NCBI GenBank assembly: GCA_033439265.1
Contig: JAVTVX010000012.1
Coordinates: 30,016,761 to 30,080,760 of the forward strand
Length of the DNA: 64,000 nucleotides
Source: Dillenia suffruticosa
Taxonomy: Eukaryota > Streptophyta > Magnoliopsida > Dilleniales > Dilleniaceae
Direction of reading: 5' to 3'
Positions 15,334-50,645 of this stretch are shown in pieces. The notes beneath the pieces are model-generated. The model did not search any database. It saw only the letters and a program-made list of their open reading frames with translations, and was not told where the DNA came from. Within the stretch, counting starts at the first letter, position 1, and each line of letters begins with the position of its first letter. The position numbers and the translations under genes are program-made.

Positions 15334-15424
15334 CACTACAAAGTAAGTGAGTTATTCTGACGGACTAAAACCATCTCCTAAATATGATAAAACCGTTGGC
15401 AAAAGTTTCTCCGACGGATGGAGT

Positions 15425-15475
15425 TTTAGTCGGTAATACACCAGTCGGGATAGGTGTATTCCGACACTTTTCTTA
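15425..15475. repeat. Subterminal hairpin of CACTA copy 1
   Basis: AATACACC, then AGTCGGGATA, then GGTGTATT form an eight-base-pair stem. The matching place in copy 2 (about 44095-44130, inverted) keeps the loop and most of the stem. Confidence 0.6.
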
Positions 15476-15559
15476 ACCATTGAAGCATGTCATATATTTA
15501 TAGTAACGGTCAGAAAGTGTTGGTAAAATTACGCTAAGTATGGGTAAAAATTACTATAT

Positions 15560-15965
15560 TTTATCATCAGTTACCATTCGATTACTACTTGGTTACTACT
15601 TGGTTACTACTCAGCTACTACTTGATTTTGATTATTACTCGGTTACGACTCGGTTATTATCATTCGATTAACACAAGTATTATCTTTTGTTGTCGGTTAC
15701 TACATAACTGTTAAGAAATGTAACTGTCATTTAGAAACGGTTATTTATATATTAGGAAATGTTATAACTTTTATCGTCGGTTACCACTAGATTACTACTC
15801 GGTTACCACTCGATTACTACTCGGTTACCACAATTGTTACCTTTTATCGTCGGTTAGTCATTTATGCTCGGTTAGTACATATGTTCATATGTTATATCGG
15901 TTACTGCAGTCATTTATCCGTTAGCAAATGTTACTATTTCGTCAGTTATCACATACTGTACGATT
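15560..15965. repeat. Subterminal repeats, left end of CACTA copy 1
   Basis: Many copies of CGGTTACTACTCGGTTACC-like words with variants CGATTAC and CAGTTAC. Such clustered short subterminal motifs are typical of En/Spm elements, where the element-encoded TNPA binds them. The equivalent array in copy 2 is at about 43660-44050. Confidence 0.8.
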
Positions 15966-16429
15966 ACCATACAAGCTGATATTTTAGGAAATGTTATAAA
16001 CTATAAAATAAAGAAATTATTAAAATAATAAAACATCTTGTATTATTGAGAATGATTGATACATTAATAGAATAAGAAAAAAAAATATTACATATCAAAT
16101 AACTATATATCTTCTCTTATCTTCTCTTCAGTATATCTTCTGCCCCAAATATGTTTGAGTCGCAGCATTAACCTTCATGTCAATCTATTCATAAAAAGGG
16201 TTATAAAAAAATATTATTTTTTTTTAAATGGAGTATGTCAATCCATTCATAAAAATAAAAATTGTTATAAATAAAAATATTACCTTTTGGATACAGTCAC
16301 GTAGAGATAATGATTGTTGGTTGGGAGCTAAGAATACAAATAATTTAAATTATTATTAAAAGCAAAAATAAAATTGAAATTAGTAATATTGTGTGAAAAC
16401 AAAGAAATAACATTCGTACTTAAATTTGA

Positions 16430-16790
16430 ACTAAACCAGATGATTGGGTTTCTTCAAAGTCAAGTTGCTCTAAGATGATTGTGTTTCTTCAAAAATACTC
16501 ATCATTCATTTAATTTATCCAAAATGAGCACAAGTTGTGAAATTTTAAAATATTTCAAAATATAATATAATCTAAATTTTACTTAAAAAAAAATATATGA
16601 TTACCTGCTTCATGAAGATTTTGGTTGATTAACAAACAAGAGCTTTGTGCGGAGATGAGAGGTTTTGAGGGGAGGAAGGGAAAGAGGGTTCAGAGAGAAT
16701 GATTTATAAAATATTTGGTTTATTTCATCGCCTAAACAAATTTTCAAAATTTTCAAAAGCCCGTCAATTTTTCCCGCTTTTTTTAACCTT
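16430..16790 (-). other. Outward-facing leader/first-exon block (left), CACTA copy 1
   Basis: On the minus strand, a leader with AAATCATTCTCTCTGAACCC and AAAACCTCTC precedes a short coding-like piece containing CCCAATCATC. It matches the plus-strand block at about 42160-42440 in copy 2. It points toward the left end of the element, opposite to the block at 19000-19397. Confidence 0.5.
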
Positions 16791-17099
16791 TTTATCGCCT
16801 TTAGATCATCAAGTTTTTACCGTCTTAGAGTTTAATTTCATCTTAATCTACCGCTCTTTTTTTTATTATATCATAAAAAATTTTGTATTTTCATTTGTAT
16901 TTTTATTTCTGTTACCAACTATTATTATAATATTATAACATTGTTACTATGTTATGTTATAATATTATTACTAAATTACATTAAAAACTTTTATTTTTAT
17001 ATTATTACATTATTTAAATTAATAATATTAATTATACCATTATTCTACATAATTCATATTTAAAATTTTTTATATATTAATTATAGCATTATTGATTGA

Positions 17100-17345
17100 A
17101 AGGCCAATACTCGTCCCATGACGCATGCCTACACGGGTGCCCGCACGGCATGCATGGTAGCCTATGCAAATGTGTGCGTGGGCGCCTGCATGGCATGAGT
17201 GGCATATGCCCCCGCGTCGGGCAACAGTGCAAGCAAGTGCCTGTGCAAGGCGCCTACGCGGGCGCACGGCTATGCCAACACGGGTGCCCGGCTATGCCAA
17301 CGCGAGCGCCCTAGCATGGGGCATGCACACATGGAAGCGACCCCG
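17100..17345. repeat. GC-rich minisatellite in CACTA copy 1 (left array)
   Basis: Short repeats such as GGCGCCTGCATGGCATG and CGGGCGCACGGCTATGCC in a setting that is more than 70% A+T. Several overlapping open frames exist only because of this composition. Confidence 0.8.
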
Positions 17346-18999
17346 TAAATTAGTATATTATTAAATTAGTAATTTATATATTATTATTTTAAATTATTAA
17401 TAATATTATTTAAAAATTATAATAATATTTAATCAATTAAGCAATTCTCACAAAAATTAGATAGTAAATTTTGTTAAAGTTCCAAAAACATTTTACATTT
17501 TGGTATCAGTCGCCAAAATTTTTTATTTACTTTTTGTTTCAACCGCGAAAAATTTAGTTTTTGCGCAAAATTATCATGTTACTTACTTGCTATATGTCTA
17601 TTTCTTTTTTTTTTCTTTTTTACTTTTTTTGTTTGCTTTTATTTAAACAAAAACAATCTAAAATAATTATTAAATTAAATTGACTTTGTGTTAGGAAAAT
17701 CAAACCACTTTATCATCAAATTCAAATAAAATTCATTAAAATTCATTGTCTCATTATGGTTGGAAGATGATATGATAGTTTTAACAAAATTAATCAAATC
17801 ATTTGAAAAATAAAATTCATTGTGTATAATGTTTTGCCTTTGACAAAATTGGGGTGAAAATTTTAGATTACTTTATTGTTAAATTTTGTTAAACTACTTG
17901 TAAAATTAACATGATGAACTAAGAGGTGTTATCTAAATATCAATTGCGTTTTTCTAAGATTGGTTACTTTAATCAATGAACTAAATTAAATCTGGTCTTA
18001 AGTATCTATCCAAGAATAATGTTACTAGTACAACATAAATTTTATCTTTGCTCCTAGCAACATTAACTTGGTCTTGCTGCCTAAATGTCAATAATGGTAA
18101 TTAAGCAATTGAGCAAATATTTGTTCTATCTTATCATATCACTTGTTAGTGGGTGAGATGGATATTGTTAGTGGATAGTACAACTAATAAACACCATGTT
18201 GTTAGTTGTTGGTGAGTGGTACAACCTTAAATTTATTATTACATAATTTGATATTATTTTTTTAAATATTATTCTTAAAAAAGATGACAAATACTATAGA
18301 TACATACTATTCAATACATACTACTTAATAGTGACTCAATTGCGAGTGTAAGTATATACCGTCATATATATATATAGTAATATTAAATTCTATTAAACTC
18401 TAATATCCAATGTACTGTTTCATATGAAGTGAATGTAATATTTTCGAAAAATAAATCAATCATGGTTGAAACATTATAGTAAATCATAGTAAAGACTTTA
18501 TTATGTGGTTTATTCTTCATGTAATAAATGGGTACAATGATATTAACAAATGGAAACAGTATAATTGGTATTTTGATAGAAAATTTAAGTAAAAACTAGA
18601 TTTAATCATTTGTTTAATTAGATTAATCTGACAAGACAAATCACGAATACTCTACTACTTATAAGGAGTTGTAAGAGTATAGATATGAAAAAATTAACAA
18701 ATTCTAAAAATTACATTGCATGAGAACTATAAAGAAATGGAGGCAATGAGTATAATAATATAGTGACTAAGAAAAAAAGAGAGAGGGTCAAAAAATTGTG
18801 AAATATAGTAATTAGTTAGTAAGTAGTTAGTAAATATTTCGTAAGTAAGTAATAAAAATCACAAGACGGTATTAATTAAAAGTATAAAAAAAATTGTGAG
18901 GAATTAAAAAACGCGGTAATGAAAAAAGAGGCGGGAGAAAAAGCGCGAAAGCGAAGTTTTAAAAATTTGTTTGTAAAAATTATATATTATATATTTAAT

Positions 19000-19397
19000 C
19001 CAGGCGAAACCCTAACTCAAAATTTCTTCATCCTTCCCTTCAAAGTTATTCTCTCCAAACTCTAACTCAAAAATTTTTCATCTTTCCCTTCAAAGTTCTT
19101 CTCCCCAAACTCATTTAAACATCTCACTCATACCTTACAAAATTTTATCCGGGAAAACTCTTCTTCTCTAACTCATTTAAACCTCTCACTCATACTTTAC
19201 AAAATTTTATCTGCCATCAAAATTTCTCCATCCTTCCCTTGAAAGCTCTTCTTCCCTAACTTATTTAAACCTTTCACTCACACTTTGTAAAGTTTTATCT
19301 TGGATATTTGAAAGAACAACGATGAACATTATACGAAAAATCACAACTACTCCAAGTTCAGTCGAACAAGTTCAATCATCCAACATATTACCCAGGT
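19000..19397 (+). other. Outward-facing leader/first-exon block (right), CACTA copy 1
   Basis: Three imperfect copies of a roughly 80-base unit (CATCCTTCCCTTCAAAGTTC, then CTCATTTAAACCTCTCACTC, then ACAAAATTTTATC) form a leader. An ATG at 19322 opens a short exon that ends CAATCATCCAACATATTACCCAG before GTTTT, a likely donor. The inverted counterpart in copy 2 lies at about 39880-39560 on the minus strand. Probably the first exon of an element gene; the downstream exons are decayed. Confidence 0.5.
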
Positions 19398-19879
19398 TTT
19401 AAAAAATAAACATACTATTTTTATTTTAATTTGAGATTTAATATTAAAATAAAAAATTTTCAAAAAATTGGCGCAGAAAAGGAAAAATTTTGTGAAAACT
19501 TATTTTCAAAATTTGTTTATGAAAATAGTGAGAAATTGTTACAGCGGAAGTGTAAAAATTTTGTAAAAAATTTGAAAATATTTTGGGAGACAAATAATAT
19601 AATAAATATATTATTATAAATTTACCAACTTAGATCAAATTATCGAGTTAATGTACTTTTTCATAATATAATATTTGTATAATAATCATTTAATTATTAT
19701 TAATATTATATTATATAACTTAATTAATTATTTTAGATGTGAAAAAATATTTCAAGCGGTGTCAATATTAATAATTTTAAATCATTATGTTCGTTAAATT
19801 GTAAATAATTTTCTTAATTATTATTATTATTAATTTAAATAAAATTACTAGTAATTTAAACAATTAAAAAATTGCTTGC

Positions 19880-20310
19880 CTGCACCGTGTTAGGCTGTTA
19901 CAGGCGCTTGACCCTTCTCGCGCGGGTGCACCCGTAGGCAGGCCAGCGCCCGTGCGGGCGCCTGCCCTTGCTCGCGTTGGCGCCCGCGTAGGCGGGCACT
20001 GCACACTGGCAGGCGCACATGCGAGCGCTCGCACTTGCGCTTGCCCATGCTCGAGCAGGCGCCCGCATGGGCAGGCGCCCCGCGCAAGCAGCGCCCGTGC
20101 GGGCGCCTGCCCTTGCTCGAGCTGGCGCCTGTGTTGGCGGGCGCTGCGCACAGGCAGACACGCATGCGAGCGCCCGCACAGGCGCCTGCCCCATGTTTGA
20201 GCGGGCGCCCACGTAGGCAGGCGCCCAGCGCAAGCAGCTCCCGTGCGGCCGCCCGCGGGGTTAGGCGCCCCGCGCAAGCAGCGCCCGTGCGGGCGCCAGC
20301 TTGCTCAACT
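19880..20310. repeat. GC-rich minisatellite in CACTA copy 1 (right array)
   Basis: About 430 bases of partly palindromic repeats built on GCGCCCGTGCGGGCGCCTGC and CTTGCTCGAGC, CpG-dense and flanked by AT-rich DNA. A tRNA-like segment begins about 35 bases to its right. The set of overlapping frames on both strands is a by-product of the repeats. Confidence 0.9.
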
Positions 20311-20344
20311 TCCTTTTATTTATGTAAAAAAGGGTAAAGTGTTG

Positions 20345-20416
20345 CAAGCACCCGGATTCGAACCTATGACCAGAACTGAGCTGAATATTTGAGGTGTTAA
20401 CCATTAATCCACAACT
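20345..20416 (-). other. tRNA-derived segment next to the GC array, CACTA copy 1
   Basis: On the minus strand, A-box-like TGGATTAATGGT (20411-20400) and a perfect B box GGTTCGAATCC (20364-20354) are 47 bases apart, close to tRNA spacing, and the segment ends GTGCTTGCAAC. A TTTTTTACATAAATAAAAGG linker then leads into the GC-rich array. It does not fold as a full tRNA by eye, so I call it tRNA-derived and not a tRNA gene. Confidence 0.65.
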
Positions 20417-21299
20417 TTTTTGTGTAAGTTTCTCTTTGTTTTTTTTTTTTTTTAATTTCTTTCTTTCTTCCTACCAATCTCAATCTCAATTTTGTTTTGC
20501 CTCCCTATTTCACTCTCACTTTTTTTTCCCTATCTCACTCTCACCTCTATTTTTTCTTTTTCTGGGAGTTTTTTTTTTCGTTTTATATTCTCTTTGAATT
20601 ATTTTTTTTCCGATTTTAATATATTCAAAACCAATGATATTTAAATTGAATATTATGAATGAATTATAATTTATTAATTTTATATATTTTGAAGGGGAAA
20701 TATTTGTGATTAAATATATATATATTTTTAAATTATTAATATATTATAATTTAAATTTCATACTTATTAGAAAAACAAAAAATTAGAAAAAAAAACAAAA
20801 ACAATAAAATTAAATGAAATAGAATAATGGATGATATAAAAATTAATTGTTATAAGAAATTTAAAATATATTGTTAAAAATTAAAATATAGAAAATTTTG
20901 AAAAATTGATGATATTTTTATAATTTATAAAATCTCGATACTATATAAAATCTAGGGAAATAATGTTATATAGTTTTTTAAAATTTCATAAAATAAAAAT
21001 AAAAGTTAATATATGCAATTTTGTACTATTTAGAAAAATTTTAAAAATGAAAGTAAATATAATATTTATAACTAAATGATGTTTTTCGATTTTTAATTTT
21101 CAAATTATTAAATCATAAAACTTTTCAAAAATTCCTTATACATTTTAAAATTTTAAAAAATGTATATAAGTTAATATTAAATTAGTATAAATAATTAAAA
21201 TATTTAATAAAATTATTTAATGTATATAAGTAATGTATGTTTATAAATATTAAATAAATGTATGTTAATAAAAAATAAAAATAAATATAATAATAGTAG

Positions 21300-21775
21300 A
21301 TTAAATAACGATTATATCACAAATTTACCACTATATAAAGTTATTTACCCACTTACCAACTATTTAATATCTACTTACCACGACTATATATCACAAATTT
21401 ATCACTAACTTATCACTAACTTACAACTATATAAACTTAATTACCCAATTACCATATACTTATCACTAATTTACAACTAACTTACCACTATATAAACTTA
21501 TTTATCCACTTACCATCTACTTATAATTTACTTACTATCTATTTATCACGACTGTATATCACAAACTTATCACTATATAAACTTACTTATCCACTAACCA
21601 TTTACTTACCACTAACTTACTATTATATAAACTTACTTATTCACTTATCATCTACTTACCACGACTATATATCACAAACTTATCACAAACTTACCACTAT
21701 ATAAACTTACTTACCCACTTACCATCTACTTACCACCTACGTACCTACTACTTCTACTTATCATTATCACAATGG
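21300..21775. repeat. Subterminal repeats, right end of CACTA copy 1
   Basis: Many copies of ACTTACCACTATATAAACTT and CACTTACCATCTACTTACC. The inverted equivalent in copy 2 is at about 37700-37985 (GTAGGTGGTAAGTAGG words). The motif differs from that of the opposite end. Confidence 0.8.
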
Positions 21776-21975
21776 AATATTACTTTACAGACGGTTGTGG
21801 TAGCTTTACCTACAGTTGATAAATTTTTCTTCACGGACATTTTAGTCAGTTGATAAAAACCTATATTTTCTGACGGTTTTGTCATAGTGCGTCTTTATAA
21901 ACTATAAAAACCATCACTAAAAGTCACCGTCATTAAAAATTATCGTCAGCATAGCGCTTTAATTTTGTAGTATAT

Positions 21976-28704: not shown

Positions 28705-28754
28705 ATCCTTTTGTTTTTCTCCAAAGGTGAATGAACTTGATTTCACTCCGTCCA

Positions 28755-28762: not shown

Positions 28763-29729
28763 ACTAGCATTTAGAGCATGGGCATATTGCATCGGATTTC
28801 AAAGGAAAGTTTATCTATTTTTAACACTAGTAATAATATAAATAATTGTCAAAAAGTTAAATTATAATGATAAGTATACATAGTAATGCTCGTGAATTAG
28901 TTTATCCAAGTCCGTTAGCTCATGTGGATCATTTTGTTAACCACACATCATTTGGCAAAAATATTTTGTATACAGTAGATTTGGCAATAATAACCCTATA
29001 ATTTTTATTGCTGTATTGGGGATCACTTGAAGGGAGTTCACTTTTCCACCCCCTCACTTCCCAAGTTGGGATGATTTTAATGGTGAGTGAATTATGCAAT
29101 GCAATTGTTGAATGATTCAACATTGGTATGATTTTCGTGAATGATCCCCAAAAAGAATGGAAAATATAAATAAATGATTTGGTAAAAAGAAAAGGAAAAA
29201 AACTGTTGAATTTTTAAAATACGAAGGTATTTTTTATAATTTACGGTATTTATACTATCATCTAACCCTTTCTAACAATGTTAACTAATAAAATTCGCAA
29301 TGTGTCATTTTACTCTAAATTAGGGTGCGCAGAGTTGAATGTGATAAACCAAAAATTGTAGCAAAAAAGTTTTTATTTTTATTGAATGCATAAACTCCCG
29401 TATTTATGATGATAAATATTAGAACAATTACTTGGCAAAAATGTTTATGATGATATTTGGGATAAATCACCAGTATCTGGTTGTTTATACTGGTTTTTTA
29501 TCCCAAATGTTTATTAAAGTTGCAACTTTTGCTCACTTTCTGCTCTGTCCACCAGATACTTCATAGAAGAGAACTCCCATAACACTACAACACTGCTTAA
29601 ACTTTTACATTGAATCTTTGAATGTTGATATCACAGATGATATTATTGGAAATTTGATCTACACAAATAAACTAAGAGTGGGATACACTGAGATCCCGCT
29701 TATTGGCATGCAAACACAGACAATGCACC
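28763..29729. other. Spacer between gene B and orphan exon 1 (unit 2)
   Basis: No coding region. It is almost identical to 1165-2143 apart from a short deletion near 29412, and is one of the most conserved tracts between the units. Confidence 0.65.
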
Positions 29730-32700
29730 CTAACGAAGGCAAGAAGGTGGTTTTTGTGTCCCGTAAGCGACACCATTGGCATATTCACATTTAGTCCTCG
29801 CGGGTTTCTTTCCATTATGGATCAAATTTATATCAGTCAACTCGAGTTTTTGACATGGCTTGTTCTGGCTGCACAAGAGACTGACTGCTACTTCAGAGTT
29901 TGAACTTCCCCAAATGTTTTTGTATTTCACATTACTAATTCGAATGTTCGAACCAGCCTGCATAAAGGAAGGAGCATGACAACCTGTTGTGTGCTCGCAA
30001 TAGGGGGTAACTTAGAAAAGGAAGAAAGAAAAGCACACAGACAGAGAGAAGGACCTACCTTTACACAAGCGTTATTGGGGCAATACTTCTGGTCGATAAC
30101 AATGGGGTTCTTCACATTGATCATTTGAATGCTTTCAAAGGTGAAATTTGATGCAATGCCGGTATATGAAGTAGCCCAAGTTTTGATCCTTACACCATTG
30201 TTAGTCCCTTTAAGTGTGCAGTCTTTTACTGCAACATTTGTCACATCTTCATTGTCTCGGGAACGTCCAAGGCTGCCGATACTAATTCCATGACCCGGAC
30301 CACAGGATACATGTGTTATATTGATGTCCCTAGACCCTCCATTCAAAGCAAAGCAATCGTCTCCTGTGCCAATATCTGAATGTAGAAAGCTAATGTAGCT
30401 GGACTCGGCTATGCGAACTCCGTCGGTGTTAGGGCTTTCATCGGGGGCCTTGATTTCAATGTTCTCAAAATGAACGTTGTTGCATGCAAAAATGCTCAAG
30501 TGTCCCCCTTTGCTGTCGAGTAATCTTATGTTGTCAATCCATCCATTATTGACCTTACGGAGAGACAGCGTCTGTTTTAAGAGAAGAAAAGAAAAGAAAA
30601 GAAAAGAGGCGTCAAAATATTACATTTAGTTAATTGAGAATATATATTTCATGATTTGTTATATCGTATGAATGCAAAGAATATATATTTTGGAAGAAAA
30701 TTTTCCCAAATTTGTCTAAACCAAATTGGGCATAACAATTCAAACTTCAATGCCAAAACTTGAGTCTGGTCATAGGAAATAAAGAAAGAACTGGTGCTAA
30801 TGCATTGGTTCGTTTGTATTTAAAGTAATTATTAATGAATAAAAATGTGTATACGCTTGGCTCATGCATTGGAAGTTGCATATCTGTGAAGAGAAGATGG
30901 AGAGAGAGAAAGAGAGAGAGTACATTGGGGAGAGACTGGCATTGCGGATTCTTTTTACAGTCATTGTAAGGCCAAGCCAAAGGTCCTTGACCATCAAATA
31001 TTCCATTTCCTGTAACTGTTAGTCCATCAATTTCCCTGAAGACGATCCACATAGTTTTACCAAGTTGAGGATCAGATGGTGCTTTCAGAACCCCATCGTT
31101 CCTAAATATGACATAACCGCGGCATGGACCCCTAAACTCCACAATACTTGTCATGAACTCTCCGGCAGGAATATAAACCATGTTCGTTCCCTTTTCTTTA
31201 CATGCTTCCTTCCATACTTTCAAAAGCACCTGCCAGTGAAATCCTTTTTGTTATGAACAGAAAAACAGGATATGCTTTTTCTTTCCCTTTCATGCGATTA
31301 ATTGCCCTTTTATAAATGAATATATGTTATGCACATAAATATTTATGAATATATATATGTGTGTGTGTGTCTTTTCTATTTTTTTTTCTTGTCTATAAAT
31401 GGTGAATTCTAAAAGTTAAGTGTCCCTCTCTACCCTGTGAATTGTCTATCCTCTCGTGAGATTTGATTCTCAAATGTTTTAGCTTCATCTAGAACAGTGA
31501 TTTTTACCGACTAATTTAGTTCATATATAGACATACTATGAGAGTTCTAACCGCACAAGGTGTAGCTTTGGCCAAGGTGTTGTTTTTTTTTCTTTTGTGT
31601 GTTATAATTATTGAAAGAAAATGGTGAAAAGTAAAAAAAAAAAGTAAAAAAGGAAAAAGAAGAAACAAAAAAAGAAGTAAAAAAAAGTAATAGTAGCAAA
31701 ATCGTAACAATGGAACCCAAAAAAAAGAGTGAAAAAAAAAGAATGGTGAAAAGTGAAAAAAAAAGAGTAAAAAAAACAAGAAGAAGAAGAAGACAAAGAA
31801 ACCCAAAAAAAGTAAAAAAAAAAAAATGGAGGGATGAAGGGTGAAAAAACAAAGATGTAAAAGGAGGGAAGAAGAAAACCCCAAAAAAAGAAAAAAAAAA
31901 ATAGTAGCAAACTATTCCCATCTGAGGTGGTAATTCCTCCCACTCTCTTCTTCCCACTTGTTTCTTTATATATAGTTAAAATATATATATAGTGACTGGT
32001 GGAAAAAAAGTGAAAAATAAAAAGAAGAAACCAAAAAAATGAAGAAAAAAAGAAGAAATCACAAAAAAGTTAAAAAAAAAAATAGAAGAAGAAGAAACCC
32101 AATAAAAGAAAAAAAAAGAGGGAATAGTAGCCGACTGTTCCTATCCAAGGTGGCGTTCCTTCCCACTCCCTTGGAAAAAAAAGCAAAACAAAAGAAATAA
32201 TAAAAAAAATAATAGAGAACTGATAAAAAAAATGAGTGAAAAAAAAAACTATTAAAGGGTGAAAAAAAAGAAGAAGAAACCCAAAAAAAAGTTAAAAAAA
32301 GAGGAAGAGTGAAGAGTGAATAAAAAGAAGTAGAAAAAATGATAAAAGAGTGAAAAAAAATAGTAAAAAGAATGAGCAGTAGCAAAATGATAACAACGGA
32401 ACAAAAAAAAGGAGTAAAAAGAAGAAAGGTAAAGAAAGAAATAAAAAGAAGAAGAAGAAGAAGAAGAAACCTAAAAAAAATAAAAAAAAAAAGGGTAAAT
32501 GGGTGAGAAAAAAAAGTAATAACAAAAAAAGAAAGAAGAAGTCCAAAAAAAAAAAAACAAAAAATAGAATAGTTGGTATATAATAATAGTATAAAAATAA
32601 GAAGTATAAAAAAAATCCCCAAAAAATAAACAGTAACCTAGTATTCAAATCCAAGGCGGCACGTTCTGCCACTCCCCCCTCCCCATTTTTTCTTTTCATC

Positions 32701-33998: not shown

Positions 33999-34735
33999 AG
34001 TGATACATAGTACCATTTTTCAAATTTGATTCTCTCTCTCATTCTCTGTCTCTCTCCCTCTTGCGATACGTGATACAAAAAGGCAGAAATTTTAAATATT
34101 TAAATTTATTCTCATCTTATCTCACTCACTTTATGTTAAAGGTGGAAGCTCCATCTACTATTTTTGGCAACTAAATATTACATGATTAATGGTAATTATT
34201 AATTCTCTCTCTCTCTCTCTCTCTCCCCCCTTACTCTCCCTCAAGTGATACGTGATATGATTTTTCAAATTTGATTCTCTCTCTCCCTCTCTCTCTCTCT
34301 CTTTCTCTCTTTCTCTCTCTACCCTCTAGTGATACATGATACGATTTTTCAAAATTGATTTTAATTTGATTAATATTAAAATTTGAATAAAGATTAATTA
34401 AAAGGAAGAAATTTTATCTCACTCACATTATATTAAAGGTGGAAACTCCATCTATTATTTTTGACATCTAGATATTAGATGATTAATGGTAATTATTAAC
34501 TCTGTCCCTCTCTCCCCTCCCTCTAGTTATTCGTGATATGGTTTTTCAAATTTGATTTTAATTTATTAATATAAGAATTTGAACAAGGAATAATTAAAAG
34601 GAAGAAATTTGATATTTAAATTTATTCTCATCTTATTTCACTCCCATTAGTATTAAAGGTGGACACTTCGTCTATTATTTTTGGCTACTAAATATTACAA
34701 GATTAATGGCAATTATTAATTCTCTCTCTCACATT
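33740..34735. repeat. Tandem repeats with CT tracts, unit 2
   Basis: Counterpart of 7240-8062, with about five imperfect units. One CT tract is expanded to nearly 60 bases (about 33937-33993). An old tRNA-like fragment, minus strand, is embedded at about 33765-33850. Confidence 0.8.
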
Positions 34736-35704
34736 CCCACCACTTATATTTGTAGTTAAACTCTAAGTAATTCGGTTCGAGTATTATGAAATACATTTAG
34801 GGACAGATCTCCCAACATAATATTTTTCATTCTCAAATTTTGAATAAGAGATTTAATTAACAGATCTAGTAATTAATCCCACTAGACCAACTAGCTTATT
34901 TAATTTTTATTTCAAGCAACATGAGTGGATCTGAATTACACATCTCATGTATAATTCTATATCATGCTTTTGCATATATCCATATCATCATATATGAATT
35001 AAAACAAGAGGGGATTGTTCCCAAGGGGACAGTCTAGTAGTATAAACTTCCTCTCTTAATCTGGTGATTATAATTTTAAATTTTTGTATAATCAAAAATG
35101 AAAAAAAGAAAGATAGGGTCTTGCATCTAATTTTTCCTTAACTAACATGATTAAGGAATATCTCAATAAACGGACGGCAAAATAAGCACGACGTATCCAT
35201 AAGAAATTATTTTTTTTGGTTACAATATAAAATTATTTCATTACAACAAAGACGGTCATACCCATACACTACATCTAGAGGCGAAGCCAATGGTTTCTCC
35301 CCCTTCTTCCCCAAGAAAAAGCAAAAAACAATAATTTATATTCTAAAAGATTTATTTTATTTTTAAAATTATAATACATATCCCTCTGTGTGCTTCTCCC
35401 CAAATGTTATATATCCCCTTTAATTTAAATTTTTAATTTTTCCCAGCCGACTAAAAAAATATGGCATAAGAACTCTACCATACCATACATCCGTGGCAAC
35501 TGTCCAAGCGCACTTAAAAACAGATGAAGACCAAGTAATATGGCATATAACGCAAGCTAGAAATCAAAAGACTCAAACCCAAACACTAACAAACTAAGTA
35601 ACCTATCATTGACCGACCATAAGAACTTTTATTGAGTGATAGAGGGTTAATGGGTTTGCAGATGTCCATATGAACTAACTAAAGTGGTTTGGTGGCTATT
35701 GTCA
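34736..35704. other. Non-coding DNA with the empty solo-LTR site and an unclassified insertion
   Basis: Near 34955 one TTCTA marks the empty target of the solo LTR in unit 1. About 320 bases at 35200-35525 are absent from unit 1 (joined there near 11345). They begin with a T-run on the plus strand and could be a transposon, but I recognise no family and no clear duplication. Confidence 0.5.
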
Positions 35705-35960
35705 TTGATTGCTTTGGAAAGCTTTTCCTCAGACGCTTTACAATCAAACATCCTTCACAGATTTGATTTAGATCTGTGATTGGAATTCTTTTCACTACCT
35801 TCTTTACTCGTTATGCTTTGAGGTCCCCGAAATAAATATGATCGAATCTCATATGTCAAACCCATGAAAGATATTGAACCGATGCTTTTAAGCACGTAAA
35901 ATCAGCTGTTCAAAAATTCAATAAAAATAATATATTCTTTGTCATGGGAACTATAGCTAT
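35705..35960 (-). pseudogene. Ty1/copia GAG-pre-integrase fragment
   Basis: On the minus strand a decayed frame reads RFDHIYFGDLKA, then NQICEGCLIVKRLRKSFPK, the pattern of the domain just before copia integrase (RFGHLNF...CEGCxxGKxxRxxFP). It belongs to the copia remnant whose gag lies to the right. Unit 1 has lost it in a deletion of about 500 bases. Confidence 0.6.
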
Positions 35961-36326
35961 CACTTTAGTATTTTGATATATTAACCACAAAGATCTACAT
36001 TCCATAGATCCAAACTCATGATGTTACTAGTTAACTTTTGAATATAGTAGATATCAACCAATAATTATAGCCACCTCTTTTAGTTTTGATTATTCGTAAA
36101 GATAAAGATATAAATACCAAGAATTTAGTTGAAAAAATGATTTCGAATAGAAATAAGAAGTGTAAAAAAATCTAAACCAATTAAAATAATGCATTATTAT
36201 TATTATCATTATTATGAATTTTCATTATTTTCATTTTTTAGTTTTATTTTCTCTATTTTTATTTTTAAACTTTTATTTATTCATTTATTTCTCTCTCCAC
36301 TCTCCAATATTGGTCTGACCAATTTT

Positions 36327-36521
36327 TTTTTTGATATTATACCAATCGGTATCTGGAATCATATTTCTACTAATTTGGTTTGGGACTTGCAGTGACCTAT
36401 TTAAGGGGACTACCCTCCCAATATAGTTTTTTGCATACCCAAGTTGCGAGTTAAATTCAAAAATTTAGTTAAGGGAACAAGCACCACATCTCATTAGATC
36501 AATTATCCGTTTGTGGTCTTG
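36327..36521 (-). mobile_element. SINE-like insertion in unit 2
   Basis: About 195 bases absent from unit 1, flanked by CCAATTTT (36319-36326 and 36522-36529). On the minus strand it has an A-box-like TGATCTAATGAGATG and ends near GGTATAATATC followed by an A-run. A B-box-like word is weak. The size, duplication and tail fit a plant SINE. Confidence 0.55.
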
Positions 36522-36639
36522 CCAATTTTAAATTTTGGAATTAAAATTTAGAATTAAAATTCAGTTTGTTATTATTATATAGTTCACATTGGATATGAGA
36601 TTTATCACACCTTTTACAATTACTTTGTCTTCCTCTTTC

Positions 36640-37219
36640 TCGACCTCTAACTTTTCCTCTTCCTCAGTTTACATTCGGCGCATTTTGAGCCCATCTTCTT
36701 GACCTGTTCCTCTTCTGCATTATCCTTCTCCTTTGACAACTACCCTTGATTGTAATACTTTTTCATTTTATTCCCTATTGCTCAAAATTCATTCTTTTTT
36801 CATGGATAGCCAAAAAACCATTGAGTTGTTAAAATAGTCACGTTCTTCAAATCTTTGAATTCTTCAATTGCAACCATCATGTGATTGAATTTTGAATCGA
36901 GGGAGCGCAAAATTTTCCATCACATGGAGATTTTCACCAAGCCTCTACATCGGGTTCACATTACTTGAATTCAAGTAAAATAATCCAAGATGGATTCACT
37001 CTCCTTCATAGAGAGGGTTTCAAACTCAACCCTTAGAGTTTGAAATCTTACCTTCTTCAGATTACCAACATCAATGTGAGTGCTCTTCAAAGCAGCCGAT
37101 GCTTACGTGGCGGTGGTCTCGTCGTTGACTTTTTCAAATATATCATCATCCGATCTTCGATGAATGATTGTAAGTGCAACTTGGTCCTTCTTTACCTCCA
37201 ATCTCTATCGCTTCTATTT
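36640..37219 (-). pseudogene. Ty1/copia gag remnant, left of CACTA copy 2
   Basis: The downstream half of the copia gag on the minus strand, with UBN2-like residues such as LKSTHIDVGNL and RVEFETLSLKES near 37090-36990. The frame is cut at 37220-37222 (ATT) by the CACTA insertion and its upstream part resumes at 44231. Confidence 0.65.
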
Positions 37220-37699
37220 ATTCACCGCAAAATTAAAGCATTATGTTGACGGTAACTTTTAGGATCGGAGACTTTTAGTCACGATTTTTATACTTTATAG
37301 AGACGGTTTATAACGAAATCGTCAAAAAATATTAGTTTTTCCCAATAGACTAAAATATTCACGAAGAAAAGTTTAGCAACCGTCTGTAAAGGTACCACAC
37401 AATCATCTATAAAGCAATATTCAATTGTGATGGTTTAAAATTATAGTCAGTAAATGTAATAGTCTTTTTGACACGTTTTAAAAATAGTTTCAATATAAAT
37501 CTTTTTTATTGTCTATTTCTCCATAAGTTTTAAATGTACTGTAACATACAAATTCTACCATTTTTTAAAACTATATTCAATTCTCACCGTTAGAATAAAA
37601 CGTTTGTATAAATTCTATTTATACTAACATATATATTGTAACGTCACTAAAATGTAAAATTGTTATCATATTTGTATCATATACTTTTATATTTGAAAA

Positions 37700-37985
37700 T
37701 AGTCTAAGTGGTAAGTTATAGTAAATTTATGATAGTAGTAGTTTTAACTAAATAAGTAGGTAGTAAGTATGTGGTAAGTAGGTGGTAAGTAGGTAGTAAA
37801 TTGTAGTAAATTTATGATAGTAGTAATTTTAACTAGATAAGTAGGTAGTAAGTAGGTGGTAAGTAGGTGGTAAGTAGATAGTAAATAAATAAGTAAATTT
37901 ATATAGTGGTAAATTAGTGATAAATTTGTGATATATAGTTAACCGATAAGTGATAAGTGGATAGTAAGTGATAAATTAGTGGTCA
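37700..37985. repeat. Subterminal repeats, left end of CACTA copy 2
   Basis: Arrays of GTAGGTAGTAAGTAGGTGG-like words, inverse to the right-end array of copy 1. A short GC-rich scrap (GGGCGCCCGCCC) follows at 37988-38030. Confidence 0.75.
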
Positions 37986-38526
37986 TCGGGCGCCCGCCCA
38001 TGCTAGCACAGGCACCCGCACATGCCAATCAACATATGCACTTAATGGTAACTTCATGCTTGTAATTTCACTAAATCTAATTTTATTTTTATTTATATTT
38101 CAACTATTATATTTTTTCATTTTTCATTTTAATTAATTCTATTTCAATTAATTTAATTGTGTTTTATTTTTTTCTTATTTTTTGTTTTTCGAATGAGTAT
38201 GGAATTTAAATTATAATATATTAATAATTTAAAAAATCTATATATTTAATTACAAATATTTACCGTTCAAAATATATAAAATTAATAAATTATAATTCAT
38301 TAATGATATTCAATTTAAATATCACTCAAATAAATTTGTTTGAATATATCAAAATAGTAGTAAAAAAACTCAATGAGAATAGAAAAAAAAAATCTCATGA
38401 AGGAAAATAATAGAGGTGAGAGTAAGATAAGGGGAAAAAAAGTGAAAACCAGATAAAAAATGAAAAAAAAAAGTGAAGTTGAGATAACTAGGAAGAAAGA
38501 AAAGAAGAAAATAGAATTACATATAT

Positions 38527-38600
38527 CACATTATGGTATAATAGTTGACTCAATTGTGTTTTGTGATTCAAGTCATCGGTTCAAATCCCTACAGCAACAA
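38527..38600 (+). other. tRNA-derived segment next to the GC array, CACTA copy 2
   Basis: A-box TGGTATAATAGT at 38534-38545 (11 of 12 consensus positions) and a perfect B box GGTTCAAATCC at 38578-38588. They are 44 bases apart, the distance in a normal tRNA. It ends CTACAGCAACA, then a T-run and TTGCATAAAAAATAAAGGA lead into the GC-rich array. Same order and polarity as in copies 1 and 3. Confidence 0.68.
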
Positions 38601-38644
38601 TATTTCCTTCTTTTTTTCTCCATTTTGCATAAAAAATAAAGGAG

Positions 38645-39005
38645 AGTGACGGGGCCCGTGCAGGCGTATGCAGCAAGCGCGGGCGCCCGCAAGGCATGCG
38701 TGCCGTGCTCATGTGCACACTCTTGCCTCTGTGGGCGTCCGGGCAGGCGCCAGCGCATACGTGGGCAGGTAACATGCGGGCGCCTAGGCATGCGGGCATG
38801 CTCACGCGCAGGGGCCTGTATGGGCAAGGGCGGGCGCCCGTTTGGGCAATGGACCATGCGCACAGCATGGGCAAGCGCTTGCATGCGCGTCGGCATGCAG
38901 AGCACGTGGGCACCCGTGCGGTTGCATGGAAGAGTGTGGAGCTTGCGCATGCGCGGGCATGTACAAAGCTTGGGTGCTCCTGCCCCGCACAGACAAGCGT
39001 GGATG
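38645..39005. repeat. GC-rich minisatellite in CACTA copy 2
   Basis: About 360 bases of repeats such as GCGGGCGCCCGCAAGGCATG and GCATGCGGGCATG, CpG-rich inside an AT-rich element. Open frames in all six readings are composition effects. Confidence 0.88.
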
Positions 39006-39559
39006 TCCATGGTTACCACATGGTTTTAATATCAGTTACCACATGGTTACTACATGTTACTACATGTGTTGTTTATATTGTCTTACTCCAAAATTATTAT
39101 TTTATCATCTAGAAAGGCATCAGAAAAAGTTATTACCATCAGTTACGTTACACAAAAGTTACAGTGATTTATGTCGGTTACTTACTTCCATGTTAGTATA
39201 AGTTTTGTATCGTTAAACGTAATAAGGATTGAAAAAAAAAAAACAAAGGCATATGTCACATAACTACATGTAAGATGTTCGAAACAAAAAATATTCTTCA
39301 AGTTTGAAGGCATTTTTATCTGTAAAAAATAATTGTATATAATAAATTGTACATAATAAATAATAAATTATGATTGTAAATACAAATATTAACTGTGAGC
39401 CCTTTCCTTTATTTGAATCCAAAACATTTTGATCCAAAATATCTTAATAGTATTGATTTCTATATTTCTTCACAACTATTCAAAATAAAAAATTAAAAAC
39501 TGCATTTTAATATTAAATATCAAACTAAAATAATGTGCTTATTATTAAAATCTGGTAAC

Positions 39560-39880
39560 ATTTTGGATGATTGAGATTGTTCAGACCGAAACTTGTTCTT
39601 TTTCTTGGAATTGTTGTGATTTTTCATACAATACTCATCCATAGGTTTAAATGGGTTAGGGAGGAGAGCTTTTAAGAAAAAATGAAGAAACTTTGATGGT
39701 GAAAGGATGGAGAAATTTTGATGACCGCATAAGATTTATAATATAACTTTTTCACAAATAAATTTTTAAAATTCCGTCCATTTTTTCTTTGGCATTTTTC
39801 TCTCGCCTCTTTTTTCATTACCGCGTTTTTAATTCGTCATAATTTTTTTTTATATTTTAAATCAATACCGCCACGTTGTT
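39560..39880 (-). other. Outward-facing leader/first-exon block (left), CACTA copy 2
   Basis: On the minus strand it holds GAGGCGAGAGAAAAATGCC, a leader with CATCAAAATTTCTCCATCC and CCCATTTAAACC, and a short piece ending CAATCATCCAAAATGTTACCAG. It matches 18930-19397 of copy 1 and faces the left end. Confidence 0.5.
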
Positions 39881-40258
39881 GAAAAAATCACTTACTACTT
39901 AATTACTATATACTTACTACATATTTACTATATTTAAGTACCTGTAAGCCTTTCTCTGCGTTAATTATATCCATTTGATTAATAAAAAATAACGTATATT
40001 CAGTATAAATTTATTAATATTATTAATTTAAATAATATACTGATGTGAAATTAGTAATTTATATAATATAGCATTATAGTTTTTGAAAATTTATCGAACA
40101 TAATATAATAGAAAGAAGTTAAACACTTTCCAAATTGACAAACTTTATAGTAAATGGTTCATTACTGGTTTACTCATCATGTAAGTATATCATTTTTTAA
40201 TATTATTAATTTCTTCTCTTTATATAAATATTTAATCTTTTAAGATTTCTTTTTTAGG

Positions 40259-40890
40259 TTATTAATCCAAAATATATCAGAGAGATTACAGATAAAATTA
40301 AATAGATTGCTCGTGGACCAGATCCATTCATTAGAAATTACAATGGCTAATATCGATTTTATGTAAAAGATCGTGAAAAATACCTTCAAACTCAGAATTC
40401 AAGAGTTATGGCAGCAGTAGTTAATGATGTTAGTTATGCAAGTGCGAGGGATAAAAGATCAATTCAAGGTAAAGTTAATTATTATGGCATCTTAAGAGAA
40501 ATCATTCAAGTAAACTAAAATGGAATGTATACATTTGTATTATTTCGGTGTGATTAGGTTGACCTACAATGAGGATGCAAGAAGGATTGATTTGGTTCAA
40601 CTTTTATCAATTTTTCCTATCGCAATCATACCAGTATCATACCGATGATGATTTGCTGGATGATTCTTATGTGTTGACATTTCAAGCAAAGAAGATATTT
40701 TATGTGGCTGATGAAAGACATAATAGATGACTTGTTGTAAAATATGTCAAAGTTGGAGATGAATTTGATATGGGTGATGAAGTGACAATTCATCATTTCA
40801 ATTCAGAAACTAATCCTCAACTAATCAGTGGGTTTGAACTAATATTAATGAAGATGAAGGAAATATATTAATCGAGATGAATGATGATAA
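40259..40890 (+). pseudogene. TNP2-type transposase fragment (DUF4216-like)
   Basis: After a likely intron acceptor (TTTTTTAG at 40251-40258) a decayed frame reads IARGPDPFIRNYNG, YRFYVKDREKYLQTQNSRV, then KVNYYGILREIIQVN, and farther on SYVLTFQAKKIFYVADE. This is the pattern of the DUF4216 region at the C-terminal side of CACTA TNP2 proteins (...RxxTQNSGV...YYGxLxxIIEL...). Stops at about 40303, 40352 and 40516 and frameshifts kill it. It is direct evidence that the element descends from an autonomous CACTA transposon. Confidence 0.7.
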
Positions 40891-41289
40891 TGATGTTGAT
40901 AGAGTAGGATGAGATGCATATATATAGGAAATGTAATTTTGTTTACATATTACTTAAGCATTTGCTATTTTTATATTTTTTTCCATTAATTTATTCGATA
41001 CACTCAGTATAATACATAGTAACAATTGGTGTAACAAATATGAAAACTATATTTAATTCTTAATTAGTTTACTAAAACAAATACTCAAAGTTGTAACAAT
41101 ATTTCTAAAAATTACATTGCATATGATTATAATAATAAGCTCAGGAAGAAAAAAAAGAGACAGATCAAAAATTAAATAAATTATTAGCATACAAAATTTA
41201 CAAGCAGTAAATAGAGTTTTTAAAAATTTACAATTAATAGTAATAATATAGTAAATAGTAATAATATAATAGAGTTTTTGAAAATTTAT

Positions 41290-42235
41290 AAGTTAGGTAC
41301 GTAGGTGCCTGTGCTGGCATGACTGAGCACCTGTGTCGACCACATATGCCATGTCAATACTTTTTTTATTATATAAAAATTTTCACTTATATATTATATC
41401 AAAAATTTCAAATATGAATTATGTAGAATAATAATATAATTAATATTATTAATTTAAATAATGTAATGATATAAATTTAGAGTCATTATTTATTGTAATG
41501 TAATATTTAGGGTAAGATTGTAGTAACATATTTCAATGTTGTAACAAAAACAAAAACAAAAACACAAATTCATAAAATGAAATTGCCGATGATGTAATAA
41601 TAAAAAAATGAAATTAAACTTATAAAAAGCGGGAAAAAATTACGGATTCTAAAATTTTATTTGAGTCCCTAAATCAAATATATAATAAATCATTCTCCAC
41701 AAACCTTCTTTCCCTCCAAAATTTATAAGTTAGGTAATAAACATATAGTAAGTAGTTAGTCAGTAGTAATACTGTCGCATGAGCTTGCATAGGCACGCAT
41801 GCATTGGCGCCCGCAGGAGGTTGCATGCATGTAGTGGCATGTGTGGGCAGGCGCCCATGCTGGCATGGCCGAGCGCCCGTATCGGCCTACACATACCATG
41901 TCTTTACTTTTTTTATTATATAAAAATTTTCACTTATGGATTATATCAAAATTTTCAAATAATATAAAATAATGATATATTTAATATTATTAATTTAAAT
42001 AATGTAATGATATAAATTTAAGATTATTGTTTATTATAATGTAATATTTAGGGTAAGAATGTAATAAAATGTTACAATTTTATAACAAAAATAAAAATAC
42101 AAATACAAAAAATGAAATTTGAAATTAAACTTACAAAAAAGTGGGAAAAAATAGTGGGGTCTAAAAATTTATTTAAACGCCTAAATCAAATATATAATAA
42201 ATCATTTTCGATAAACCCTCTTTTCCTCCAAAACC
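41290..42235. repeat. Internal direct duplication in CACTA copy 2
   Basis: Two consecutive copies (about 41300-41745 and 41850-42235) share GGCATG.C.GAGC, then ACTTTTTTTATTATATAAAA, AATTTAAATAATGTAATGAT, TATTTAGGGTAAGA and AAATCAAATATATAATAAAT. A short GC-rich insert (41780-41890, GGCGCCCGCAGGAGG) lies between them. Confidence 0.7.
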
Positions 42236-43440
42236 TCTCCTGATAAGCTCTTCTCCCTCAAAGCTCAGATCTTGTAACTTAACCATAATCTCTTTTTTCA
42301 AATTTTCAAATCTTGCGACTTCACCAAAATTTTATTTCAAATTTTCTAACTCAATATGGGAAAAACTAAACGAAACCATCCAAAAAACAATTTTACTTTG
42401 AAGAAGAAGCCCAATCATCCTAATATGCTACCCAGGTTTGATTTGGTTTTGGTTTAAAAATATATCATTGCTTAGGATCTAAATTATTTGCCAAACTCAT
42501 TGTTGAAAAGATATAAATAACTCATATTTTATTTTACTTATAATTAATTTTACTGCATAATATTTTATAAATTTGGAATCACATTTTATTCTTACAGACA
42601 ACACAATCTAGGACGAAACCTTGTAGAGCAGAATAAGTAGAATCTGATTGGATGACAGTTTTATTTCTATGAAAGTATCAGAAGTTATGGTATAAATGAT
42701 TATTTTTATATAGTTTTTGATTTATTGACATTCTCGTTTCATTTATTTTCTTTATACGAAATGATGAAGAGTCAAATAAAGTCTGTCGAGAGTGAAAAAT
42801 ACCAAGTATAAAGTTCAAATTTATCTTGAAAAAGTGATATTATCTCTAAAGTTAAAGGTTCTGATTCGTGGGAAAGAATCATATATGCATCACAAAATAT
42901 GCATTCAACCAGAGTTGAGAAAGAAGATATAACTAATATGATACAACGATTAATGGAATAAAATTATATTAAGTAATGTTCTTCTTCATATTGCTATGCA
43001 TGTTGGAACTGAACATAAAGATGAATTGATGAATATGGTTAATGAAGCAGACTTATTACTGGTATTCAGGTATGTTATTTCTCTATTTCTATTTCAGTAC
43101 AATCTTATTAATTTCACTCTTATTTTTCAAAAATAATCAAAATTATTTGTTTTTTAGGTTTCTTCAAGACAAGATGCTGAGAGTGCACATAAAAACCAAC
43201 AATCATCATCATCGCCTGACTCCGTCCCAAAAGGTAATATTTTTATCTATAACTATTCTTAATATGTACCATTCCATTATACTCTTGTCACTATTTATTT
43301 TTATTTTATTTTTAACATAGTAATATTTTTATTTATGAACATTTTTGCATTATTATATTATATTTCATCTGACTCTACTTCTTTTTGTAAATGAATAGAT
43401 TGAATGAAGATGGATTGTGCCGATAATCCTTTTGATAATT
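42160..43440 (+). pseudogene. Second element gene (leader and decayed exons), CACTA copy 2
   Basis: A leader with AAATCATTTTCGATAAACCC is followed by an ATG at 42356 that opens a short exon rich in Lys, Asn and His, ending in CCTAATATGCTACCCAG before a GT donor. Further exon-like pieces can be read to about 43440, for example around 42780-42960 and 43160-43235, separated by AG/GT borders and broken by stops. The position next to the subterminal repeats suggests the tnpA-like gene of En/Spm; that is inference, as I see no diagnostic motif. Confidence 0.4.
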
Positions 43441-43659
43441 GAAGTGAAGCATTTGTATAAACATATCAGAAGAAGATATATGGATTGTGGGATATGCTTG
43501 TAAGATATGTATTTTTTTTTATTTATCCAATTGTATCAATCATTCTCCAAAATTATAATATTTTACTATTTTCTTTATTTTCAAGTTTTTAGTTATATTT
43601 TCTAATACTTGTACTAACTATCAATAAAATTTATAACATTTCCTCACATACGAAAATAT

Positions 43660-44060
43660 ACGCAGTAACTGACTAATAACTGACTAGTAAGTAATGATAG
43701 TAGTAACCGAAAAATAAGTAACTAGTAACTGATGATAGTAGTAACCGAGAAGTAAGTAATCAGTAAGTGAGTAGTAAGTGATGGTAATAGTAATCAACTA
43801 TAGTGGCAATAAAAGTACTAACATTTCTTAACATTTCCTAACCGACCATAAATTGATCACAATATTTCTTAACATTTGTACAACCGAAAATAAAAGTAAT
43901 AACATTTCCAAACGGTTTTATATATGTCATAATATGGCAGTAACATAACTGACATAGGTACTAATATGACAACCGATGATAAAAGTATTAAATTTTTCTC
44001 AACACTATTTTAAACCGATGATAAAATATTAAATTGTACTAACAGTTCTAACCGTCACTA
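43660..44060. repeat. Subterminal repeats, right end of CACTA copy 2
   Basis: AGTAACCGA, TAGTAAGTAATGATAGTAGT and CTAACCGACC words repeated, inverse to 15560-15965 of copy 1. The hairpin with CTATCCCGACT follows at about 44095-44130. Confidence 0.78.
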
Positions 44061-44230
44061 TAAATATATGACATGTTCCAACGGTCATAAAAAGTGTCGG
44101 AATTCACCTATCCCGACTAGAGTATTACCGACTAAAACCCCATCCGTCAGAGAAGATTTTGCAAACGGTTTTATCATATTTAGGAGACGGTTTTAATCCG
44201 TCAAAATAACTTACTTGTTTTGTAGTGATT

Positions 44231-48699: not shown

Positions 48700-49796
48700 T
48701 GTTGGGCAACAAACTATTGGGCATGATGGGTAAGGTGATATGGAGTGCAAAGCCCTCTCGTAGCACCTTTGTCACACAAAAAGGTGGCTTGGGTGAAAGG
48801 ATTAGGCGTAGGGTTAAGGGTAGTCGTGAATCACTCACTCCCACTCAATTTGTTTGTGATCCTCACCTCTCTGCATCATAGAGATCTCTTAAAAGGTGGT
48901 GTAACAAAAAAAATGGACAACTTCTTTATGCTCCTAAGTTAGACTCTTACTTTAGAAGAAAAAACTAAACTTTATTAATAAAAGAGAATTAACAAAAGAC
49001 TTGACAATATGCTAGACAATTCGGTCTCCATGAGGTACTTATAGACATCAATCATACCTCAAGAGAACTACTTTATCTAGGACTCTAATGACCAGATCTA
49101 ACAACCATTTTAATTAGAATTAATCTCCTATTAATGGCCAAACACAATTCTAGAAAAATAAGATAAGATAAGATATGTTTCCTAGTTTAAGTGGTCTTTC
49201 TCTTGGCTAGGACTTGTATTGCTTGCTCTTGGACTCCTAGCTTAGGTGGAACTCCTTGTTGCTTAGGGCATTTTGATGTGTAGGACTCCTTGTTGTTTAC
49301 AACTTCTTACTCAGGTAAAACTCCTTGTTGAATTAAATCTCCTTGTTGTAAAACAACGTCTTGTTTATCTAAGAGTCTTGGCTAAGATGAGACTCCTCCA
49401 TTAATGCTATTCAACTCCTGCTTAAGCTTGATGGTCACACTGCACAGCTCCTAACCCAAATGCTTATGCGAACTAGTATTGCTTTTCATGTCTTTAGATC
49501 TTGGTTGGTTCTCTTACTACTAGAAAATAAGATATTAGCGACGGAAATTTCCATTGTTGAAGGTAAAAAATCCGTCATTGAAAATACCCAACTAATTTTT
49601 ACTGACGAAATACTATCCGTCGCTAATAGCAGCAATGAATTAATGACAGATTTTTTTCGTCACTAAAAATATCGGTCGCTAATCCATCGTTAATAGAAAA
49701 AATTATCTAAAACAACTAACGACGACTTAGTGACACCGTCGCTAATCCGTCATTAATAATTCACTATCAGTGATAGATTTTTTCTGTCGCTAAATC

Positions 49797-49980
49797 TGGT
49801 ACCCACACGCGCCTGCAGCGCCCAATCGCGCTTCTCGCCCATGCATTGTCACGCACACAACCTGGTCCTGCGCCACCAGCCCGCCCACACCTGCGAACCC
49901 GTGCTTGCAAACCTGCCCACACACTCCCTCATACGCACGCACCCGTTATCCCGCCCCGCCCGCCAACCCGCCCACTTCCT
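49797..49980. repeat. GC-rich stretch in the small CACTA-like element
   Basis: CACGCGCCTGCAGCGCCC, CGCACGCACCCG and CCGCCCCGCCCGCC words, C-rich on the plus strand, in AT-rich surroundings. A tRNA-like segment follows at 50005. Confidence 0.75.
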
Positions 49981-50004
49981 CTAATGTGTAAAAAATCCCT
50001 CCAT

Positions 50005-50075
50005 TGCCTCCGGCGTGGCTCGAACCCCGCTACGGCTAAAATGATTAAAGCAACACAACCACCAGACCACACTTA
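50005..50075 (-). other. tRNA-derived segment next to the GC stretch, small CACTA-like element
   Basis: On the minus strand, A-box-like TGGTCTGGTGGT (50069-50058; 10 of 12 positions) and B box GGTTCGAGCCA (50026-50016; 10 of 11) lie 43 bases apart. It ends GGAGGCAATGG, followed by TTTTTTACACATTAGAGGAAG and then the GC-rich stretch. Same order and polarity as in the two large CACTA copies. Confidence 0.6.
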
Positions 50076-50645
50076 GTCATCTGACTATATATATATTTTT
50101 TATTTTTTTTGCTTTACTAATATACCAACGAATTAGCGACATAAATTTTTCGTCGTTAACCTATCGTTAATAGGTTTACAATTTTTTTTTTTTTTTTTTT
50201 TTTATGGTTGACCACTACAACGATGGATTATGGATAAAAATATTTCCGACGCAAATCCATTGCTATTAGCAACGGATTTTTTTCTGTCGATAATTTTCCG
50301 TCGTTGAAAGTGTATTTTATTGTAGTGTCCTTTCTGCCCAGACTTTGATTTAGCATTTTAGCTGCATTCACCCCCACTTTGAGCCCTCTAAGATTCTTGG
50401 ATGCATTTGTATACTTTTGCTTGGGGATTAATCTATTTGCTCAGCGTTGACATGAGTTTCCCCGATGAGATTTTGGTTTACATTCTCTCTTCATGCTTTC
50501 TAGTTTCCTTAAGCCGTTTCCCTATTCTTCTAAAGTGCTCAAGTCAAAACTTCATTTGCATTACGTTTGCCTGGAGTTCATGAAGAATTCGGATTTGGAC
50601 AAGGCCTTGTCCCATGTTCCACTGGGACTCTCGACTCCGCTGAGC

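Follow-up and report, generated by a model that had tools for sequence, protein, structure and literature searches.

Recurrent cassettes with a Pol III type-2 promoter signature and a GC-rich block inside CACTA-type elements of Dillenia suffruticosa

Analysis of a 64-kb window of the Dillenia suffruticosa genome (the whole stretch of 64,000 nucleotides) uncovered one small ordered cassette at three sites, each inside a CACTA-type element. An A-box-like word, a B box, a T run, an AT-rich linker and a GC-rich block can be read directly, in this order, at site B (38527-39005, + strand; B box 44 bases past the A box, block of 67% GC), site A (20416-19880, - strand; 47 bases, 74% GC) and site C (50075-49797, - strand; 43 bases, 68% GC). 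The polarity of the parts is identical at all three sites, the T run is of six or seven T, and the observation of a recurrent cassette is confirmed. The cassette also recurs across unlike CACTA families and is more widespread than these three sites. Starting from its established position, polarity and copy number, and from the established homology of its linker across families, we tentatively favor, at close to even confidence, the reading of these sites as copies of an old internal CACTA cassette that bears a type-2 Pol III promoter signature and is a putative TFIIIC-based boundary or regulator.

A scan of both strands of the 64 kb for the full order (A box with ≤2 mismatches, B box with ≤1, TTTT within 45 nt, then ≥60% GC), whose criteria were fixed only after sites A, B, and C were known, returned exactly three matches, namely these sites, and no match in 60 control windows shuffled inside 100-nt blocks. 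Without the GC condition, three real sites compare with 0.83 expected. Direct reading and scan thus bear out the common order of parts at three sites described in an earlier note on this DNA, and the shared polarity that it described is found at all three.

The carriers of the cassettes have CACTA-type terminal inverted repeats, with one or two changes at one of the ends in every case, and each is flanked by a 3-bp target site duplication (TSD) as in the CACTA (En/Spm) superfamily. Element A (15334..21972, - strand; TSD TAT; ends read, with self-alignment) separates the gag-like from the pol-like part of a Ty3/gypsy element, whose LTR pair was placed by self-alignment at 13144-13748 / 25320-25929 and whose gag and pol ORFs were recognized by eye. 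Its tRNA-like segment (20340..20418, -; box scan and genome copies) contains the A box TGGATTAATGG and, 47 nt on, the B box GGTTCGAATCC, followed by a T6 run and AT linker (TTTTTTACATAAATAAAAGGAAG; 20309..20331, -; sequence reading and C-linker profile) and by the GC-rich block (19880..20302, -; reading and self-alignment), which contains a repeat of ~145 bp. A second GC-rich block of 60% GC (17094..17363, no strand assigned), in which TRF lists a 22-bp array at 17252-17311, has no tRNA-like segment according to the sequence model R1, built from 37 of 81 extracted modules.

Element B (37223..44227, + strand; TSD ATT; ends and self-alignment) is a relative of A, and its empty site is found at 12174-12176 within a duplicated segment. 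Its tRNA-like segment (38527..38600, +; box scan and genome copies), with the A box TGGTATAATAG and the B box GGTTCAAATCC 44 nt on, is followed by a T7 run and AT linker (38611..38646, +) and by the GC-rich block (38647..39005, +), both placed by sequence reading; a second, short GC-rich block of 56% GC (41763..41912, no strand assigned) again lacks a tRNA-like segment by model R1. Elsewhere in the window, 175-4349 and 27776-31898 form a segmental duplication of 96.4% identity with ORFs that are polygalacturonase-like by eye, and additional alignment blocks connect 8279-12176 with 34713-37222. No transposase was found in A or B: of their 29 listed stop-to-stop frames of ≥70 aa, 10 chosen outside the GC blocks gave no Pfam family, Transposase_21 (tnp2) included, and none of the others looked transposase-like by eye. 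The two elements therefore look non-autonomous.

Element C (49515..50327, - strand) is an 813-bp CACTA element of a different family, with a TSD of TCC/TCT (one mismatch) and an empty site near 53140 recognized by eye. Its tRNA-like segment (50001..50080, -; A box TGGTCTGGTGG, B box GGTTCGAGCCA 43 nt on) precedes a T6 run and AT linker (49974..49995, -), which are the best-kept parts in the C family, and a GC-rich block (49797..49973, -); the family ends read CACTACAAGAAAA...TTTTCTAGTAGT. The CACTA-type nature of the carriers and the distinct termini of the third element, both proposed in the earlier note, are accordingly upheld by the terminal inverted repeats and TSDs. Recurrence of the module in unlike families is likewise supported, C belonging to a separate family. 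Elements A and B, in which several blocks including both ends align at 77-87% identity and the cassette lies at the same place, are related, and the module common to them is best explained by descent. The description of the arrays as minisatellites was only partly apt: TRF lists none in the three GC blocks, and a degenerate repeat of ~145 bp is present in that of A.

The Pol III type-2 promoter signature, comprising an A box, a B box at the usual spacing and a T run after it, is present in all three families, and TTTT or longer follows the B box in 28/28 A copies, 30/30 B copies and 22/23 C copies. Box spacing in A copies ranges over 40-47, varying by indels between the boxes. The exact B-box consensus is retained in only 2 of 23 C copies; no B box within two mismatches is found in 2/23 C copies and 1/30 B copies, and no A box within two mismatches in 2/23 C copies. 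A true tRNA was rejected, since ARAGORN returned none and Rfam gave no hit at gathering threshold or at E values up to 10, so that the segment is tRNA-like in its boxes and their spacing and is not recognized as a tRNA by the tools tried. A structured RNA was likewise rejected: RNAalifold found no consensus base pair in 22 C copies (locus L078, in which the B box is deleted, was left out of the alignment), and single folds were no better than those of shuffles. Given no tRNA and no conserved RNA fold, the boxes are best regarded as a DNA-level signature. Plant tRNA genes are described, in the part of the source available, as combining AT-rich upstream DNA, A and B boxes and poly(T) (PMC11700998), and we counted the presence of this same set of signals in favor of a Pol III cassette.

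In order to evaluate how far the three cassettes share ancestry, they were aligned as single copies, as family majority forms, and by parts. In plain alignments of single copies, the tRNA-like parts of A and B are related (0/1000 shuffles as good), while C is not related to A or B (204/1000 and 253/1000 shuffles as good). With family majority forms, the whole cassette aligns in every pair better than all 500 shuffles. When the boxes and T run were held fixed, the tRNA-like bodies of A and B were still related (16/2000 and 8/2000), and the C body aligned with A or B no better than shuffles did (870, 1103, 543, and 617 of 2000). A and B agree in their boxes and diverge in the spacer that joins these. 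For the linker, every pair of A, B, and C is related (0-8 of 2000 shuffles); a profile built solely from C-family linkers ranks the A linker 3rd of 127,950 window positions and the B linker 659th, the low rank of the latter likely reflecting additional bases there in B. Together these alignments indicate that the T run and linker are common to A, B, and C, and that the C body has either diverged strongly or come from another source. A resemblance limited to the boxes, raised in the earlier note as a possible outcome, does not apply to A and B, whose bodies are homologous, nor to the linker, homologous in all; for the C body, homology beyond the boxes could not be demonstrated. The cassette would have been inherited by descent, with families perhaps exchanging it to some extent.

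Copies were then sought with patterns and sequence queries in the whole assembly (596 Mb in 37 contigs). Among the best 40 of 219 candidates, these 40 being scored, A cassettes are 84-93% identical to the query, the window's own copy excepted, and B cassettes are 83-94% identical among the best 40 of 79. For the whole C element, the best 40 of 883 candidates were scored, and the best matches are 65-79% identical, itself excepted. By these figures, the C family is old and large, and it is separate from A and B. One locus (L004) combines A-like and B-like pieces. In four places, B-type and A-type cassettes lie 2.54-2.58 kb apart on one strand (C34:11598283/11600833, C34:11360032/11362587, C34:11812469/11815049, and C1:5621518/5618977), as composite or nested elements.

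The A/B terminus on the cassette side has 187 genome matches with ≤2 mismatches, compared with 0 for the control. Between the first 100 of these termini and the 80 listed A/B cassettes (40 each), 19 pairs lie within 5 kb; in 19/19 the two are on the same strand with the cassette inward, and no other orientation occurs. At least 19 of the 100 listed termini thus have a cassette. Five more A/B-type termini were read, of which two contain it (L090 and L092). Another, L091, shares its terminus with the A/B type and has no cassette in the 3 kb read; by eye, L093 is broken by gypsy-like sequence, and L094 is a 951-bp stretch that stops just short of the expected cassette place. L094 is also an A-type element with an additional GC-rich block at ~530-660, upstream of that place, again by eye. 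Two series of A/B-type termini, each on one strand, look as if they lie inside very long duplicated arrays: C15:16423455-17289440, with steps mostly of 100-113 kb, and C4:9421821-10218499, with irregular steps of 39 kb upward.

Within the C family, both CACTA ends flank 14 of the 23 aligned cassettes, and the elements so bounded measure 812-1756 bp by alignment. Model R1 detected the cassette in 27/30 C loci at E ≤0.01, 24 of them strongly, and matched 10 of the 13 loci outside its building set (7 strong, 3 weak). Seven of the 30 loci had been left out of the alignment because they gave no plain alignment over the tRNA-like part; in these the module is strong in one, weak in three and absent in three. 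A majority of CACTA members without the module, which the earlier note had named as evidence against it, was not found: among 12 C loci whose best match lies outside the cassette, nine have it (6 strong, 3 weak), three of the six strong ones having been used in R1.

A generic pattern (exact GGTTCGAATCC, 10-38 bases, TTTTT, 12-40 bases, GGGCGC) has 191 matches in the genome, A copies included and a few places counted twice, compared with 0 for the reversed pattern as control, and a T run/linker pattern derived from the C family has 119 matches vs 0. Among the first 19 matched strings listed are several types distinct from A, B, and C, designated D-I and known from the matched strings alone. In comparisons of short segments (66 pairs, 500 shuffles each, uncorrected), the linker chains A, C, F, H, and I, with D, E, and G apart. 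Strings of the form B box-T run-ATTAAAA-GGGCGC also occur outside families A-C, for example at C1:7967587, C5:9072337, and C4:21465026.

Evidence for selection on the cassette is mixed. In the A family, the purine/pyrimidine (RY) identity of both boxes is 0.994, compared with 0.849 in the far flank, and the boxes are almost free of transversions, a contrast that arises in part from ranking the copies with a query that spans the cassette. B copies have no conservation contrast between boxes and surroundings. In the C family, RY identity is 0.917 and 0.834 in the boxes, 0.914 in the upstream block, 0.983 in the T run and 0.943 in the linker; by this measure, the boxes are not preferentially conserved in old C copies, and the T run and linker are best kept.

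Such decay of the boxes at the rate of their neighbors, together with the loss of a box in some copies, is what would be expected if a tRNA-derived, SINE-head-like piece had been caught once or a few times by CACTA ancestors beside a GC block and had since spread without function, which we consider a real possibility, if on balance a doubtful one. Capture by CACTA elements has been reported for gene fragments and satellite arrays, in the available portions of the sources (PMC8978399, PMC8195511). Passive copying of one capture would hardly produce a C body unlike that of A and B in which boxes and linker were kept, and does not account for the recurrence of order and polarity in families with unlike termini, the kept T run or the further cassette types across the genome. 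Plant tRNA-derived SINEs resemble the cassette in their Pol III type-2 head, where A and B boxes stand at the usual spacing and a T run is present. Unlike them, the cassette copies read sit inside CACTA elements, in a similar place and with constant polarity. The eight A loci read first all align with element A well beyond the cassette and into the element flanks (8/8), 14 of the 23 aligned C modules have a CACTA end on either side, and a separate SINE body, tail, or SINE target duplication was not seen in the copies read.

The GC-rich blocks also occur without the tRNA-like part, as in the second blocks of A and B and at L089 (C12:20520900-20525118). The latter is likely an autonomous element: a 744-bp block of 71% GC (1697-2440), with no cassette, is preceded by an open frame (1-1482) and followed by an open Transposase_21 frame of 861 residues, with the likely start of the transposase ~0.9 kb downstream of the block. 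Genome-wide, the best 150 of 2257 Transposase_21 candidates were scored, and none has any of the 80 listed A/B cassettes closer than 20 kb. Two have a listed A/B terminus within that distance, one at L090, a plain A-type element with its cassette, and one at L091, of a family without a cassette in the 3 kb read. For cassettes of the generic pattern, 2 of 94 listed lie within 20 kb of a listed transposase, compared with 0.95 expected by chance, and an autonomous partner carrying the cassette was not found among the scored candidates near the listed cassettes and termini.

CpG sites in the GC blocks of A and B have transition frequencies of 0.101 and 0.113, compared with 0.056 and 0.057 at other C/G positions. 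Changes at about twice the rate of other C/G are in keeping with methylated DNA and not with a protected island. The flanks show no less change at their CpG sites (0.17 and 0.117), so that the blocks are not special in this respect. In maize En-1, exon 1 is 82% GC between positions 300 and 550 and was proposed as a site of regulation by methylation, and soybean Tgmt* is said to be without such a GC region, both as far as the available part of the source goes (PMC2613891). The elements described here resemble the maize En/Spm control region in being CACTA elements with a GC-rich block inside one terminus and CpG changes in keeping with methylation. They differ in that an A box, a B box and a T run precede the block, that the search of A and B for a transposase frame was negative, and that the block is described here as a sequence feature.

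This likeness suggests an alternative in which the AT linker, TATA-like in the form CATAAATAAAAGG, is the conserved unit of a Pol II core promoter, the GC block is a transcribed leader like En/Spm exon 1, and the Pol III boxes are incidental. The superior conservation of T run and linker in C, and the start of the GC block directly past the linker, would fit such a promoter. We consider it improbable: the C linker (CACAAATTAAAGG) makes a poor TATA box, no transposase frame was detected in either A or B, the L089 block is placed between two open frames well upstream of the likely transposase start, and such a promoter would not explain why A box and B box recur together. Chance coincidence of tRNA-like words and GC blocks can be rejected as extremely improbable from the empty shuffled windows, together with the genome-wide excess over the reversed pattern and the family-wide presence of the cassette, despite the abundance of B-box words with ≤2 mismatches in the window and the post hoc design of the scan.

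Under the favored reading of an old CACTA cassette with Pol III promoter signals, the layout is an A box, a B box usually 40-47 nt further along, a T run, an AT-rich linker, and a GC-rich block, placed some way inside one terminus and reading inward. The boxes may bind TFIIIC, or once did so, in the source elements, and the outcome would be either a short transcript made by Pol III (~100 nt) or a complex of TFIIIC on the DNA. Such a complex would then separate the terminal repeats from the CpG-dense block and might thereby act as a boundary or regulator for the internal promoter of the element. An insulator role or a Spm-like control role of the cassette is thus putative. tDNA insulators, which are bound by TFIIIC, offer a parallel with their A and B boxes beside a chromatin-sensitive block, the likeness of the cassette lying at the level of sequence. 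A more specific and rather unlikely version is that of an ancestral CACTA control cassette in which a Pol III, not a Pol II, promoter faces the CpG-dense block. Several families would then have retained or regained the boxes, even as the rest of the tRNA-like body changed, because TFIIIC/Pol III occupancy shields or times the methylation-sensitive part.

Tandem repeats inside CACTA elements have precedents in Jozin, Tpn1, and Pack-CACTA elements with captured gene fragments or satellites; in Chenopodium quinoa, according to the part of the source available, a satellite array lies inside CACTA elements, and the Jozin type contains a 171-bp satellite close to its 3' end (PMC8978399). The present case differs in being a small ordered cassette that recurs across families. 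No description of a Pol III or tRNA-like cassette in CACTA or other DNA transposons was found in the open-access literature searched by title.

Should the boxes be functional, a class II transposon would be under Pol III regulation, and the many copies with differing boxes would offer a natural setting in which to study tDNA-like boundaries next to methylated DNA. Annotators should be alert to such stretches, which can pass for SINEs or for tRNA pseudogenes. Even if it is a passenger, the cassette is a marker for descent and for module exchange between CACTA families.
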